Shown here piece after piece: positions 540-5,266 of a stretch of 5,752 nucleotides of DNA (positions within the stretch are counted from its first letter, which is position 1; every line of letters starts with the position of its first letter). The stretch is from an uncultured Verrucomicrobiales bacterium (GTDB taxonomy: Bacteria > Verrucomicrobiota > Verrucomicrobiae > Limisphaerales > CANJSG01): positions 1 through 5,752 of the forward strand of contig CAMLMI010000318.1 of the NCBI GenBank assembly GCA_946480965.1, given 5' to 3'. The notes beneath the pieces are model-generated. The model saw nothing but the letters and a program-made list of their open reading frames with translations, was not told the origin of the DNA and ran no database searches. The translations under genes and the position numbers were made by a program.

Positions 540-548
540 TGGTAGAAT
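540..548 (+). promoter_or_regulatory. Extended -10 promoter TGGTAGAAT
   Basis: The hexamer TAGAAT (543-548) matches the TATAAT consensus at five of six positions and is preceded by TGG, the extended -10 signature. No good -35 box is seen. The same ten bases, TGGTAGAATG, occur on the minus strand before the radC-like gene and the primase gene. The next ATG (555) is 7 bases beyond the hexamer. The element lies between the stop of the 80-residue gene and the 151-residue gene, so the second gene may also be transcribed separately. Confidence 0.6.
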
Positions 549-554
549 GGAGGG

Positions 555-1040: not shown

Positions 1041-1535
1041 TCAGGGAAAGAGCCCCAGCTCGCGGAGCGACTGGTGGCCGGGCTTCCCGATGACGATGTG
1101 GTCGAGCAGCTCGATCTTGAGGAGCTGACCGGCCTTGGCCAGATCGCGCGTTACCCGCGTGTCGGCGTCCGAAGGGCTAGGATCGCCCGAGGGATGGTTG
1201 TGAAGCAGGACCACGGCGGAAGCCCCACCAAGGATGGCGGCGCGGAACACCTCGCGCGGATGCACCAAGATGGTGTCCATCGTGCCGTGCGAGACGAAGT
1301 AGTGGCCGCGCACGCGGCGGCGGACATTGAGCACCAGGACCACGAGGCATTCGACCTCGGGGTTGAACTGCGGATGGGGCTCGATGTGGAGCCGCCAGTA
1401 GGCGGCGGCGTGCCGGGGCGTCTCGCAGATGGCTAGATCCATCGGGGTGGGACAATCGCGCAGGGCGACGATCTTCCATTCCTGGGGCGGCTTGAAGGTC
1501 TGCGGTTTGGGGTTGAACGAATCGGGCTGATCCAT
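1041..1535 (-). CDS. Short RadC-like JAB/JAMM-domain protein
   Basis: The 164-residue product carries the complete RadC-type JAMM metal-site motif: E62 in 'VECLVVLVLN', then HNHPSGDPSPSDAD with H112, H114, S122 and D125. 'HPREVFRAAILGGASAVVL' precedes it and 'LLDHIVIG' follows, both typical of the family. Full-length chromosomal RadC is about 220 residues with an N-terminal helix-hairpin-helix region; that region is absent here and replaced by about 45 unrelated residues. Short JAB proteins of this kind are common on plasmids and integrative elements, where they are named DNA repair or anti-restriction proteins without firm biochemical proof. Start: ATG at 1535, with AGGAG in GAGGAG (1548-1543) 7 bases upstream. 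The frame stays open to 1679, but that extension is low-complexity (SPAAPSTSPPPQ) and coincides with the structured leader. It has its own promoter at 1686-1678. Confidence 0.9.
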   Translation of the reverse strand: MDQPDSFNPKPQTFKPPQEWKIVALRDCPTPMDLAICETPRHAAAYWRLHIEPHPQFNPEVECLVVLVLNVRRRVRGHYFVSHGTMDTILVHPREVFRAAILGGASAVVLLHNHPSGDPSPSDADTRVTRDLAKAGQLLKIELLDHIVIGKPGHQSLRELGLFP

Positions 1536-1671
1536 GAGGACTCTCCTCGGGCCGTGCGCCTGCTCGAACAGGTTGCTTCGGGTTGGGGACTCTCCGCCGG
1601 AAGCGTGCACGGCCCACTTTCTTTGGGGCGGCGGAGAGGTGCTGGGTGCTGCCGGAGAACGGCGGCTTCCA
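1536..1671 (-). ncRNA. Structured 5' leader of the radC-like gene, possible pseudoknot or switch
   Basis: Reading the minus-strand RNA 5' to 3': a small hairpin GCCG/CGGC (1663-1660 with 1654-1651); segment CUCUCCGCCG (1638-1629), perfectly complementary to CGGCGGAGAG (1599-1590); segment GGGCCGUGC (1615-1607), perfectly complementary to GCACGGCCC (1557-1549); and hairpin CCUG/CAGG with a UUCGAG loop (1572-1559). The two long pairs interleave, so they form either an H-type pseudoknot or two alternatives. A further stem, GCUUC/GAAGC (1604-1600 with 1579-1575), competes with the first pair. GGAGAGUCC is present twice, at 1595-1587 and at 1546-1538; the second copy overlaps the ribosome binding site and lies in a small GAGGA/UCCUC hairpin. 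The upstream CUCUCC can pair with either copy. All pairings were read by eye; function is inferred. The outer limits depend on the predicted start of transcription. Confidence 0.5.
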
Positions 1672-1677
1672 CGGGTC

Positions 1678-1686
1678 ATTCTACCA
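1678..1686 (-). promoter_or_regulatory. Extended -10 promoter of the radC-like gene
   Basis: The minus strand reads TGGTAGAAT here, then G, the same ten bases as before the 151-residue protein gene and the primase gene. No convincing -35 box lies 16-18 bases upstream. Transcription would start near 1671, giving a leader of about 136 bases. The site lies between the stop of the upstream XRE gene (1714) and the radC-like start, so radC expression can be independent of that gene. Confidence 0.55.
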
Positions 1687-2031: not shown

Positions 2032-2042
2032 CATTGCTGGCC

Positions 2043-3800
2043 ATGAAACCTCTCGGTGGCCTCTTCGGGCTGGGTGTCTTTCTCCTGGGCTTGCTCTCGT
2101 CGGCCCAGATCGCTTGGGCGCAGCCTTTCCAGGTTGGCGGAAAAGCCGATCCGTCCGAGGGAGGGACGATCACCGGTCTCGGCAGCTATCCCGATCAGAC
2201 GAGCATCGTCCTGCAAATCCGTGCGAATACGGGTTGGTATGTGCGGGAGGTTTCCTTCGATGGACCGCCGTATCCCGTGGTCGACGGACGCCAGCAGCTC
2301 ACGCCCGAGGAGCGATTCATCAAGTTCCGCCAACTGGAGGCCGCGTTGAAGCCCGATTTCGATCCCACAACGATCACCTCTTTCGACGCGCCGGTCACGG
2401 TGATCGGCGATTCGACCACGGAGGTCGTCTTCGCACCGCTTGCTCCCGTATTCGGCTCGCCATTGCCGGTGACGGTCGGCGCGCTCACCGGAACCTTCGT
2501 GACCCTGTCATCGGAGGTGGCGGGCCGGCGGCCCATCTCCCTTCAGTGGCGCAAGGACGGTTTGGATCTTCCCGGAGAGACCAATGCCAACCTGACCATC
2601 CCCCAACTACAGCCCTCCCAATCCGGCGCTTACAGTCTGGTCGCGAGCAACGCTTTCGGAATGACGAACTGTCTTCCGGCCCAGATCCATGTGCGTGATC
2701 TGCTCGTCCTGGCCGACGGAGAACCGGTCTTGGACGGGGTTTTGGATGTGGGGCAACAGACCCTCGTCAGTTGCCAGTCGATCCATTCCGACGCCCGGAT
2801 CTTTTACACGCTCGACGGACAGACACCGGATTTCGAGGCGACCGCCTACCTGGCTCCCTTTGTCGTCACGAACAACGGTCTGTTGCGGGTGATCGCCTAC
2901 TCCGCCGATTTCGCGCACTCGTCGGTTTCCGAGCCGATCCACATCGCGGTCCATCCCTTGTTCCAGCTCCATGTTTCCAGCCTGGCGGGCTCCGTCGTGC
3001 GGGAACCCGCCGGGCCTTACCGGAGCAACACGCTCGTCACGGTCGTCGCGGTTCCTGAACCAGGCTGGGTCTTCATGGGCTGGAAAGGGGTGCTGGACGG
3101 TGACAGCTCGACCAACGTGGTCGTCATGGATGGGGACAAGACCTTGTCGGCGGTGTTCGGGACACCCTTGGTTCTTGGGGCCGTCGGCGGAACGGTCTCG
3201 GCCCATCCGGCGCTGCCGCTGTATCCGTTCGGGAGCGCGGTCACGTTGCACGGGACGCCCGATCCGGGCCGGTATCTTCGGCAATGGTTTTGGGACGGCC
3301 GAACCAGCGCGACCAATTCGCTGACCTTGCCGGTGGTTTGGCCGACACCGACGGTTTCCGCCGCCTTCGCCACGCTTCCGGCGGGCCAAGCGGCGCTGAC
3401 CGCGCTTCCGGACGGGGAAGGAGTCGTGCTTGGCGGGCAAAACACCTACGCGCTGGGAGCAACGGCGGAGCTTTGGGCGGTCCCGCATCCGGGGCAGGAG
3501 TTTTTGGGATGGGCCGGGGACGCGGACGGATTGGAGAACCCGTTGCGGGTGACCATGGACTCCAGCAGGGTCGTGCGCGCGCGCTTCAGCCGCCGCCCGA
3601 TGCTGAGTCTCCACCTTCGGGATGATACGGTTCACCTGACGGTCGCCGGCCCGCCAGGAGCGGTTTTCCCGCTCCACTCCAGCACCAACCTCACGGACTG
3701 GAGCCTGTCCCGGTTGCTGACCAATTACGTGGACGAGGCCGTGTTCTCCGAGCCCGTGACGGATGCCCCGATCAAGGCTTACCGCATCGTCGAGCCGTAA
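2043..3800 (+). CDS. Secreted multidomain protein with Ig-like, chitobiase-C-terminal-like and InlB-type repeats
   Basis: The 585-residue product begins with a signal peptide (MKPLGGLFGLGVFLLGLLSS, likely cut after AWA-26). Then follow a divergent repeat-like segment (about 32-132, 'GGTITGLGSYPDQTSIVLQI ... EVVFAP'), an Ig-like domain (about 138-217; W169 core, 'SGAYSLVASN'), a chitobiase/beta-hexosaminidase C-terminal-type domain (about 249-302, 'ARIFYTLDGQTP ... LRVIAYS'), and three divergent InlB-type repeats (about 308-372, 375-442, 447-515), each ending near '..AVF' or '..ARF' and two with 'F.GW'. The end module (519-585) has 'STNLTDW' and 'KAYRIV', typical of Verrucomicrobiota exported proteins. 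No catalytic domain is visible, so adhesion or matrix binding is the likeliest role. I prefer the ATG at 2043 because the signal peptide starts there; a TTG at 2034 is possible. No Shine-Dalgarno sequence is evident. The opposite-strand frame at 2607-3677 is Arg-rich shadow. Confidence 0.88.
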   Translation: MKPLGGLFGLGVFLLGLLSSAQIAWAQPFQVGGKADPSEGGTITGLGSYPDQTSIVLQIRANTGWYVREVSFDGPPYPVVDGRQQLTPEERFIKFRQLEAALKPDFDPTTITSFDAPVTVIGDSTTEVVFAPLAPVFGSPLPVTVGALTGTFVTLSSEVAGRRPISLQWRKDGLDLPGETNANLTIPQLQPSQSGAYSLVASNAFGMTNCLPAQIHVRDLLVLADGEPVLDGVLDVGQQTLVSCQSIHSDARIFYTLDGQTPDFEATAYLAPFVVTNNGLLRVIAYSADFAHSSVSEPIHIAVHPLFQLHVSSLAGSVVREPAGPYRSNTLVTVVAVPEPGWVFMGWKGVLDGDSSTNVVVMDGDKTLSAVFGTPLVLGAVGGTVSAHPALPLYPFGSAVTLHGTPDPGRYLRQWFWDGRTSATNSLTLPVVWPTPTVSAAFATLPAGQAALTALPDGEGVVLGGQNTYALGATAELWAVPHPGQEFLGWAGDADGLENPLRVTMDSSRVVRARFSRRPMLSLHLRDDTVHLTVAGPPGAVFPLHSSTNLTDWSLSRLLTNYVDEAVFSEPVTDAPIKAYRIVEP

Positions 3801-5241: not shown

Positions 5242-5257
5242 ACGAACCTCCATCGCC

Positions 5258-5266
5258 ATTCTACCA
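5258..5266 (-). promoter_or_regulatory. Extended -10 promoter of the primase operon
   Basis: The minus strand reads TGGTAGAAT, followed by G, identical to the sequence before the radC-like gene and the 151-residue protein gene. Transcription would begin near 5251, about 60 bases before the primase ATG. No good -35 box is visible. The longest primase frame (from 5267) starts inside this element, which argues against that start. Confidence 0.55.

Follow-up and report, generated by a model that had tools for sequence, protein, structure and literature searches.

A pseudoknotted, probably cis-regulatory RNA leader ahead of mobile-element-type genes, found mainly in one group of Verrucomicrobia

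The DNA described here is a contig of 5,752 nucleotides from an uncultured Verrucomicrobiales bacterium (CAMLMI010000318.1 of assembly GCA_946480965.1), and we refer to this whole stretch as the window. Its minus strand carries a short gene for a RadC-like JAB protein, and the leader of this gene (1671-1536) is the subject of our analysis. The original prediction for this leader, made from the sequence alone, had pointed to two perfect helices of 10 and 9 base pairs interleaved as in an H-type pseudoknot, to a small hairpin at 1572-1559, and to a short sequence that occurs both in the core and over the ribosome binding site (RBS). All of these features are present. Helix A joins CTCTCCGCCG (1638-1629) to CGGCGGAGAG (1599-1590) in 10 perfect pairs, helix B joins GGGCCGTGC (1615-1607) to GCACGGCCC (1557-1549) in 9, and the direct repeat GGAGAGTCC is found twice on the minus strand, at 1595-1587 and at 1546-1538. 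Another helix, stem C (GCUUC at 1604-1600 with GAAGC at 1579-1575), had been missed; it encloses the core copy of the repeat and makes the layout a three-way junction. From 5' to 3', the elements are A5 (the 5' strand of helix A), a joining strand, B5, C5, A3 together with the core-copy loop, C3, hairpin H, B3, the RBS copy and the start codon, as listed below.

1678..1683, minus strand: putative -10 box (TGG-TAGAAT-G); TGGTAGAATG occurs three times in the window
1671-1536, minus strand: leader of the short radC/JAB messenger RNA (mRNA)
1629..1638, minus strand: A5, the 5' strand of pseudoknot helix A, CUCUCCGCCG; pairs with 1599-1590 and covaries though never modelled
1616..1628, minus strand: joining strand from A5 to B5; variable in length and sequence in alignment A4
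1607..1615, minus strand: B5, the 5' strand of closing helix B, GGGCCGUGC
1600..1604, minus strand: C5, the 5' strand of stem C, GCUUC
1590..1599, minus strand: A3, the 3' strand of helix A within the stem C loop, CGGCGGAGAG
1587..1595, minus strand: core copy of the direct repeat, GGAGAGUCC; repeat identity is seen across lineages
1575..1579, minus strand: C3, the 3' strand of stem C, GAAGC
1559..1572, minus strand: hairpin H, CCUG UUCGAG CAGG; 94.6% of its cells are paired in the family
1549..1557, minus strand: B3, the 3' strand of closing helix B, GCACGGCCC
1538..1546, minus strand: RBS copy of the direct repeat, GGAGAGUCC
1041..1535, minus strand: gene behind the leader, encoding a short RadC-like JAB protein of 164 amino acids (Pfam RadC PF04002, E 7.8e-36)

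None of 2000 dinucleotide shuffles of the 140-nucleotide leader contained interleaved perfect helices of at least 10 and at least 9 pairs, and any perfect helix of at least 10 pairs arose in 17 of the 2000. Taken by itself, the nested fold stands out only slightly (z -1.88, 10 of 200 shuffles), and the case for structure therefore rests on comparison. The closest JAB relative found in the genome collection (locus L001, SCTL01000844.1, 65% identity) shares this layout ahead of a longer JAB gene; compensatory changes have altered its helices A, B and H, stem C is unchanged, and a repeat of its own, GAGAGUAAUC, is present in two copies. In a third case (L189/L210), the element precedes a gene for an ArdC-metallopeptidase-RadC fusion. 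A first covariance model, R1, was built from these three seeds with helices B, C and H only, and a second, R2, from 54 aligned matches; the pseudoknot helix A was modelled in neither.

An alignment of 57 rows and 27 pairs (A4, from which L228, L243, L245 and L246 were left out) yields extensive support for the full structure. Standard pairs make up 87.3% of its paired cells as compared with 76.1% in shuffles, both sides have changed at 23 of the 27 pairs (14.3 in shuffles), and double changes fill 185 cells (55.2 in shuffles), while a shift of the partners by 1 to 3 columns lowers pairing to only 32-43%. The window row forms all 27 pairs, and one pair of hairpin H exchanges CG and UA within the family. 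Because helices B, C and H served for aligning, their share of these numbers leans towards the model. For the unmodelled helix A, there are 51 double-change cells against 18.0 in shuffles, the covariation score is 0.362 where shuffles give 0.228, and none of 500 shuffles reaches the native value of either; changes on both sides occur at 8 of its 9 pairs, a count equalled in 58 of the 500. All nine pairs form in 24 of the 57 rows, the lowest row has three, and in some low rows, L244 and L234 among them, pairing occurs in a shifted register. When A5 strands and core loops were exchanged between lineages, pairing fell from 7.39 to 5.52 base pairs among 23 clusters and from 13.87 to 9.13 kcal/mol among 14 clusters, and no permutation of 20000 reached the native value in either case. 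A comparison of strands by G-U and A-C combinations gave 74 and 79 in all.

Both stems of the original prediction thus covary among homologous leaders. As shown by comparison, helices B, C and H of the predicted fold form a three-way junction in which the stem C loop engages a single-stranded segment farther upstream by base pairing, and the resulting H-type pseudoknot ends a few bases before the RBS and start codon. The swaps counted in base pairs, and those for repeat runs and A5-RBS scores described below, left out L228, L243, L245 (first match) and L246 as duplicates or cut copies and L256 as partial; the swaps in kcal/mol, the folding for RBS access and the repeat test by gene type left out L256, L274 and L276 as partial or doubtful.

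The motif occurs mainly in one Verrucomicrobia group. At a threshold of E up to 0.001, R1 matched at least 49 sites in at least 36 of 320 genomes of one Verrucomicrobia order, at least 14 of 384 genomes of a class sample, and at least 3 of 387 genomes of a phylum sample, the seed genome among them. R2 raised the yield for the order to at least 59 matches in at least 43 of 320 genomes. These counts are lower bounds, since scans of more than 40 genomes were filtered more strictly, with about 10-12 candidates scored in each genome. In 39 other RadC-bearing genomes, R2 found no match; this control came from a RadC search, contained no known positive and includes six genomes labelled Verrucomicrobia or its subgroups, the rest belonging to other or unstated groups. 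The order includes a genome labelled Verrucomicrobia subdivision 3 (G003/L003), and at least one member, ahead of a JAB gene (G510/L258), was not among the order-search matches. Plasmid and phage records gave BLAST matches only at chance level (best E 3 and 4). A first pattern search of viral contigs returned 96 stretches, of which 80 were inspected and none of these had the motif, and two further patterns returned none and one, the single stretch being without the layout.

Several copies can occur in one genome, in places two within about 1 kb of one contig (for example, L253:469-569 and 1465-1565), and genomes G085 and G300 each have five matches, several of those in G300 at contig ends. A possible divergent member lies at L185:1993-2092 on the minus strand (R2 E 1e-4), with a RadC gene behind it. 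Its B helix appears by eye to be a different one, formed by CGGUCAUC/GAUGACCG, with GCGCG/CGCGC interleaved, and its core and its RBS both contain AAGGUAA; its nested fold is ordinary (z 0.41).

The position of the motif relative to genes is consistent. An open reading frame (ORF) of at least 55 amino acids starts between 8 nucleotides before and 15 nucleotides after the 3' end of the match in 49 of 57 members, and 47 of these 49 start 1-3 nucleotides before that end, although the exact offset leans on the model because the seed alignment ended at the start codon. No conserved reading frame runs through the leader itself: an in-frame stop falls inside the motif in 21 of the 49 members, though in the window the frame is open from an ATG at 1679. 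Pfam assigns the 49 downstream proteins to RadC (22), ArdC-N (15), MPTase-PolyVal (15), SymE (7), Prok-JAB (7), DUF932 (1) and Tc-38 (1), with counts that overlap through fusions and related models, and some proteins have no Pfam match at all (L223 and L247). The RadC, ArdC-N and MPTase domains are described in one survey as parts of the polyvalent proteins of mobile elements (PMC5512222). Their presence behind the motif suggests a mobile-element context, which the window itself may share, and as a whole the genes resemble those that mobile elements use for entry or against restriction.

The proteins of L219, L238 and L242 have first residues like those of the JAB protein, followed by a domain that resembles SymE (E 2e-8, 1e-8 and a weak 0.004), which suggests that gene bodies have been exchanged behind a constant leader and N-terminus. 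In the window, a 95-amino-acid ORF (4140-3853) follows a primase-like gene, and a relative of this ORF lies within 400 nucleotides upstream on the same strand for 20 of the 56 motif copies outside the window. Between these two genes and the helix-turn-helix and JAB genes, on the opposite strand (2034-3800, plus), lies a gene for a 588-amino-acid protein with InlB B-repeat, Ig and chitobiase-like domains.

Related JAB genes at L181, L183, L190, L191 and L193 have a different structured leader just upstream. By eye, this is a long near-perfect hairpin that ends a few bases before the AUG, with an outer stem such as GCGUUUCG/CGAAACGC, then GGAGCGG/CCGCUCC and then CUGCUCUCUC/GAGAGCAG. At L190, GUCAGUGG/CCACUGAC appears by eye in the place of the outer stem, and the predicted L190 fold differs.

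Given a compact pseudoknotted three-way junction that ends at the RBS, it is reasonable to ask whether the leader is a riboswitch, in which a metabolite or ion would stabilize the pseudoknot and thereby set access to the RBS. The recurrence of AACC in the core loop and the similar sequence of helix B in most rows of the alignment would be in keeping with this. However, the sequence of helix B is replaced in L233, L252 and L273, and the downstream genes (RadC, ArdC, SymE and DUF932) are of the mobile-element type rather than members of a metabolic or transport pathway. We therefore regard a riboswitch as quite unlikely.

Many of these leaders also carry the direct repeat. The core loop and RBS region share a run of at least 7 identical bases in 30 of 54 members, and the window shares 9. 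The repeat itself takes many forms, such as AAGGCUAGC twice in L244, AAGGGUAAC in L229 and L232, GAGAGUCAUC in L226 and L238, and GAGAGUGAAU in L233. The longest shared run averages 6.87 bases in native pairs and 4.37 when partners are swapped, and none of 20000 permutations reached the native value. Even when swaps were made within gene types, whose classes are crude patterns that place 17 of 57 members under 'other', the run was 6.33 as compared with 4.88 among 27 clusters (0 of 20000). In about half of the members, the core loop thus holds a copy of the RBS, and the two copies change together across lineages.

The original prediction offered a specific explanation for the two copies, namely a two-state switch in which CUCUCC of A5 pairs with the core copy and leaves the RBS open, or pairs with the RBS copy and closes it. 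The first half of the repeat is the partner of A5 in the core, and A5 can therefore pair with both copies wherever that half is identical. Six A5-RBS pairs are possible in the window, with a nested-fold pairing probability of 0.53 per A5 base, and this probability exceeds 0.3 in 15 of 54 members. Nevertheless, A5-RBS complementarity is no better than with swapped partners, either in score (11.26 native, 11.06 swapped, 6952 of 20000 permutations) or in energy (5.16 and 5.72 kcal/mol, 16668 of 20000), in a test whose power is limited because many repeats start with GAGAG. Pairing of A5 with the core is stronger than with the RBS by 8.7 kcal/mol on average. Furthermore, the repeat runs past helix A and its shared constraint persists in the part that A5 does not pair with (4.74 as compared with 3.44 swapped, 0 of 20000), and the repeat is kept in L226 and L238 despite a weak or short helix A. 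Since repeat identity is kept and A5-RBS pairing does not rise above swaps, the proposed switch is apparently not what selection keeps, and we consider it unlikely. What stands of the proposal that the leader controls JAB translation is a pseudoknotted and probably cis-regulatory leader.

Identity between the copies could also arise by template switching during replication between two near-identical short sites, with no function implied. In favour of such an origin, the two copies agree even in the variable tail of the repeat, for which no consistent partner in cis was found within 200 nucleotides upstream and 300 nucleotides downstream. However, the core copies of four similar G085 elements end with C, C, U and A while the RBS remains constant, so that no homogenization is seen there, and some lineages have the fold without the repeat. 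Template switching thus strikes us as rather unlikely.

The extended -10-like box at 1686-1677, TGGTAGAATG, is one of three such sites in the window, where 0.12 are expected with one mismatch allowed. The sites lie at 540-549 (plus), 1677-1686 (minus) and 5257-5266 (minus), each ahead of a gene, and are probably extended -10 promoters for the three genes. At 540-549, an ATG follows within a few bases, and that mRNA may therefore be leaderless. For the JAB gene, the putative box lies upstream of the motif, from which we infer an RNA start near 1671 and not downstream of 1600. By a simple pattern, 14 of 57 members have -10-like boxes 30-72 nucleotides ahead of the motif. At L210, L211, L239-L241, L230 and L236, visual inspection shows a hairpin resembling a terminator, in most cases followed by a T-rich tail, between the upstream gene and the motif, with little space left for a promoter between hairpin and motif; hairpins are also seen by eye upstream of A5 in several members.

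These observations also bear on whether the element acts as RNA. Plasmids are known to carry structured sites of single-stranded DNA, and the genes that follow the motif are similar to leading-region and antirestriction genes, such that the motif might be a priming site or single-strand promoter on an entering plasmid strand. However, the motif adjoins a start codon and RBS, the RBS copy of the repeat makes most sense in an mRNA, and the upstream -10-like boxes speak for transcription. We judge a DNA site to be improbable, the least favoured of the explanations considered.

Taken together, the motif is a previously uncatalogued class of structured RNA, probably with a cis-regulatory role. The RBS lies outside every conserved helix, and the conserved fold itself can therefore permit translation. 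The simplest reading of a conserved pseudoknot with a matched RBS copy is a factor that recognizes both. In this model, the candidate factor would act in trans and would most likely be a protein that binds nucleic acids. Bound both to the pseudoknot, core copy included, and to the RBS copy that matches it, the factor would repress or gate translation, much as gp32 acts on the gene 32 pseudoknot and its adjacent repeats. A leader class that controls translation through such a factor is a proposal on which we find ourselves evenly divided, and the existence of the structured RNA class alone is far safer than this whole reading.

Several results weigh against the proposed factor or its generality. 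A long repeat is missing in 24 of 54 members, including L247, L250, L251, L255 and L258, and when swaps within gene type were made among 14 clusters the repeat signal was weaker (302 of 20000). Repeat sequences differ between lineages and, within genome G159, between L244 and L218/L265, which is awkward for one strict sequence-reading protein. L226 has a weak helix A and L238 a short one. With helix A formed, the RBS of the window is 24% unpaired in nested folding, as compared with a family mean of 60%. R2 matched (E up to 0.001) only 5 of 27 loci with JAB relatives, and this gene family is therefore often without the leader. Moreover, the 39 genomes in which R2 found no match included no known positive.

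A bolder version of the proposed control, which we regard as possible but on the unlikely side, is that a mobile-element RNA cassette wires unrelated anti-defence genes (RadC/JAB, ArdC, SymE-like and DUF932) to one signal by means of the RBS copy in its pseudoknot. The occupant of the core, such as a single-strand-binding protein freed from incoming DNA, would then also occupy or release the RBS. We know of no mode of control in which RBS mimicry co-evolves copy by copy.

The original prediction had asked whether the leader belongs to the radC motif, so named after radC-like genes, or is something new. It is not the radC motif: neither RF01754 nor the STAXI motif (RF01728) was among the Rfam matches to the whole window (E up to 5) or to 1520-1700 and the L001 leader (E up to 10). 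Membership in any class of Rfam release 15 was rejected, as the leader gave only sub-threshold matches such as Scr4115 (17.3 bits against a gathering score of 58, on the other strand). When 16 member loci were searched at the gathering score, two tRNAs outside the motif were the sole matches. An HDV-like ribozyme layout, considered for the interleaved helices, was also rejected because the P3 stem and J4/2 strand are absent. Among the literature matches listed, which for several searches were the top-ranked portion, the element is undescribed. Rfam 15 should include many families from a larger 2017 catalogue.

Known systems nevertheless offer partial parallels. The radC motif is placed upstream of radC-like or DNA-handling genes, much as a RadC gene lies directly downstream here and in 22 of the 49 members. 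It is likewise listed as a candidate structured RNA, probably cis-regulatory (Weinberg 2010, PMC2864571), but the listing is for Proteobacteria, and its model is not among the matches of the window leader. The same source lists STAXI for Enterobacteriales, with pseudoknots near antirestriction, single-stranded-DNA-binding and integrase genes (PMC2864571). The likeness lies in pseudoknots near antirestriction genes, although STAXI has tandem small pseudoknots and the present leaders have one each, set against the start codon; second copies in L221 and L253 are about 0.8-1 kb away and not tandem. In the T4 gene 32 leader, a case of autogenous translational repression, gp32 recognizes a pseudoknot and UUAA(A) repeats (PMC3014915). 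That leader likewise has an upstream pseudoknot and short repeats that overlap the RBS, but it belongs to a phage and has two coaxial stems, whereas the present leaders carry the repeat within the loop of the pseudoknot and precede genes of several unrelated kinds. SymE matches in 7 of 49 downstream proteins recall the leader of the SymE/SymR type I toxin-antitoxin system, in which SymE is controlled by antisense RNA; in the present family, more members precede RadC or ArdC genes.

The motif adds an RNA class with strong covariation and no Rfam 15 match in a little-studied phylum, and it connects this class with mobile-DNA genes of the antirestriction type. It is unusual for a pseudoknot loop to carry a copy of the RBS that changes along with the real one, and this feature can be tested directly. 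If the element does time the expression of anti-defence genes, it would bear on how entering DNA times its own protection.
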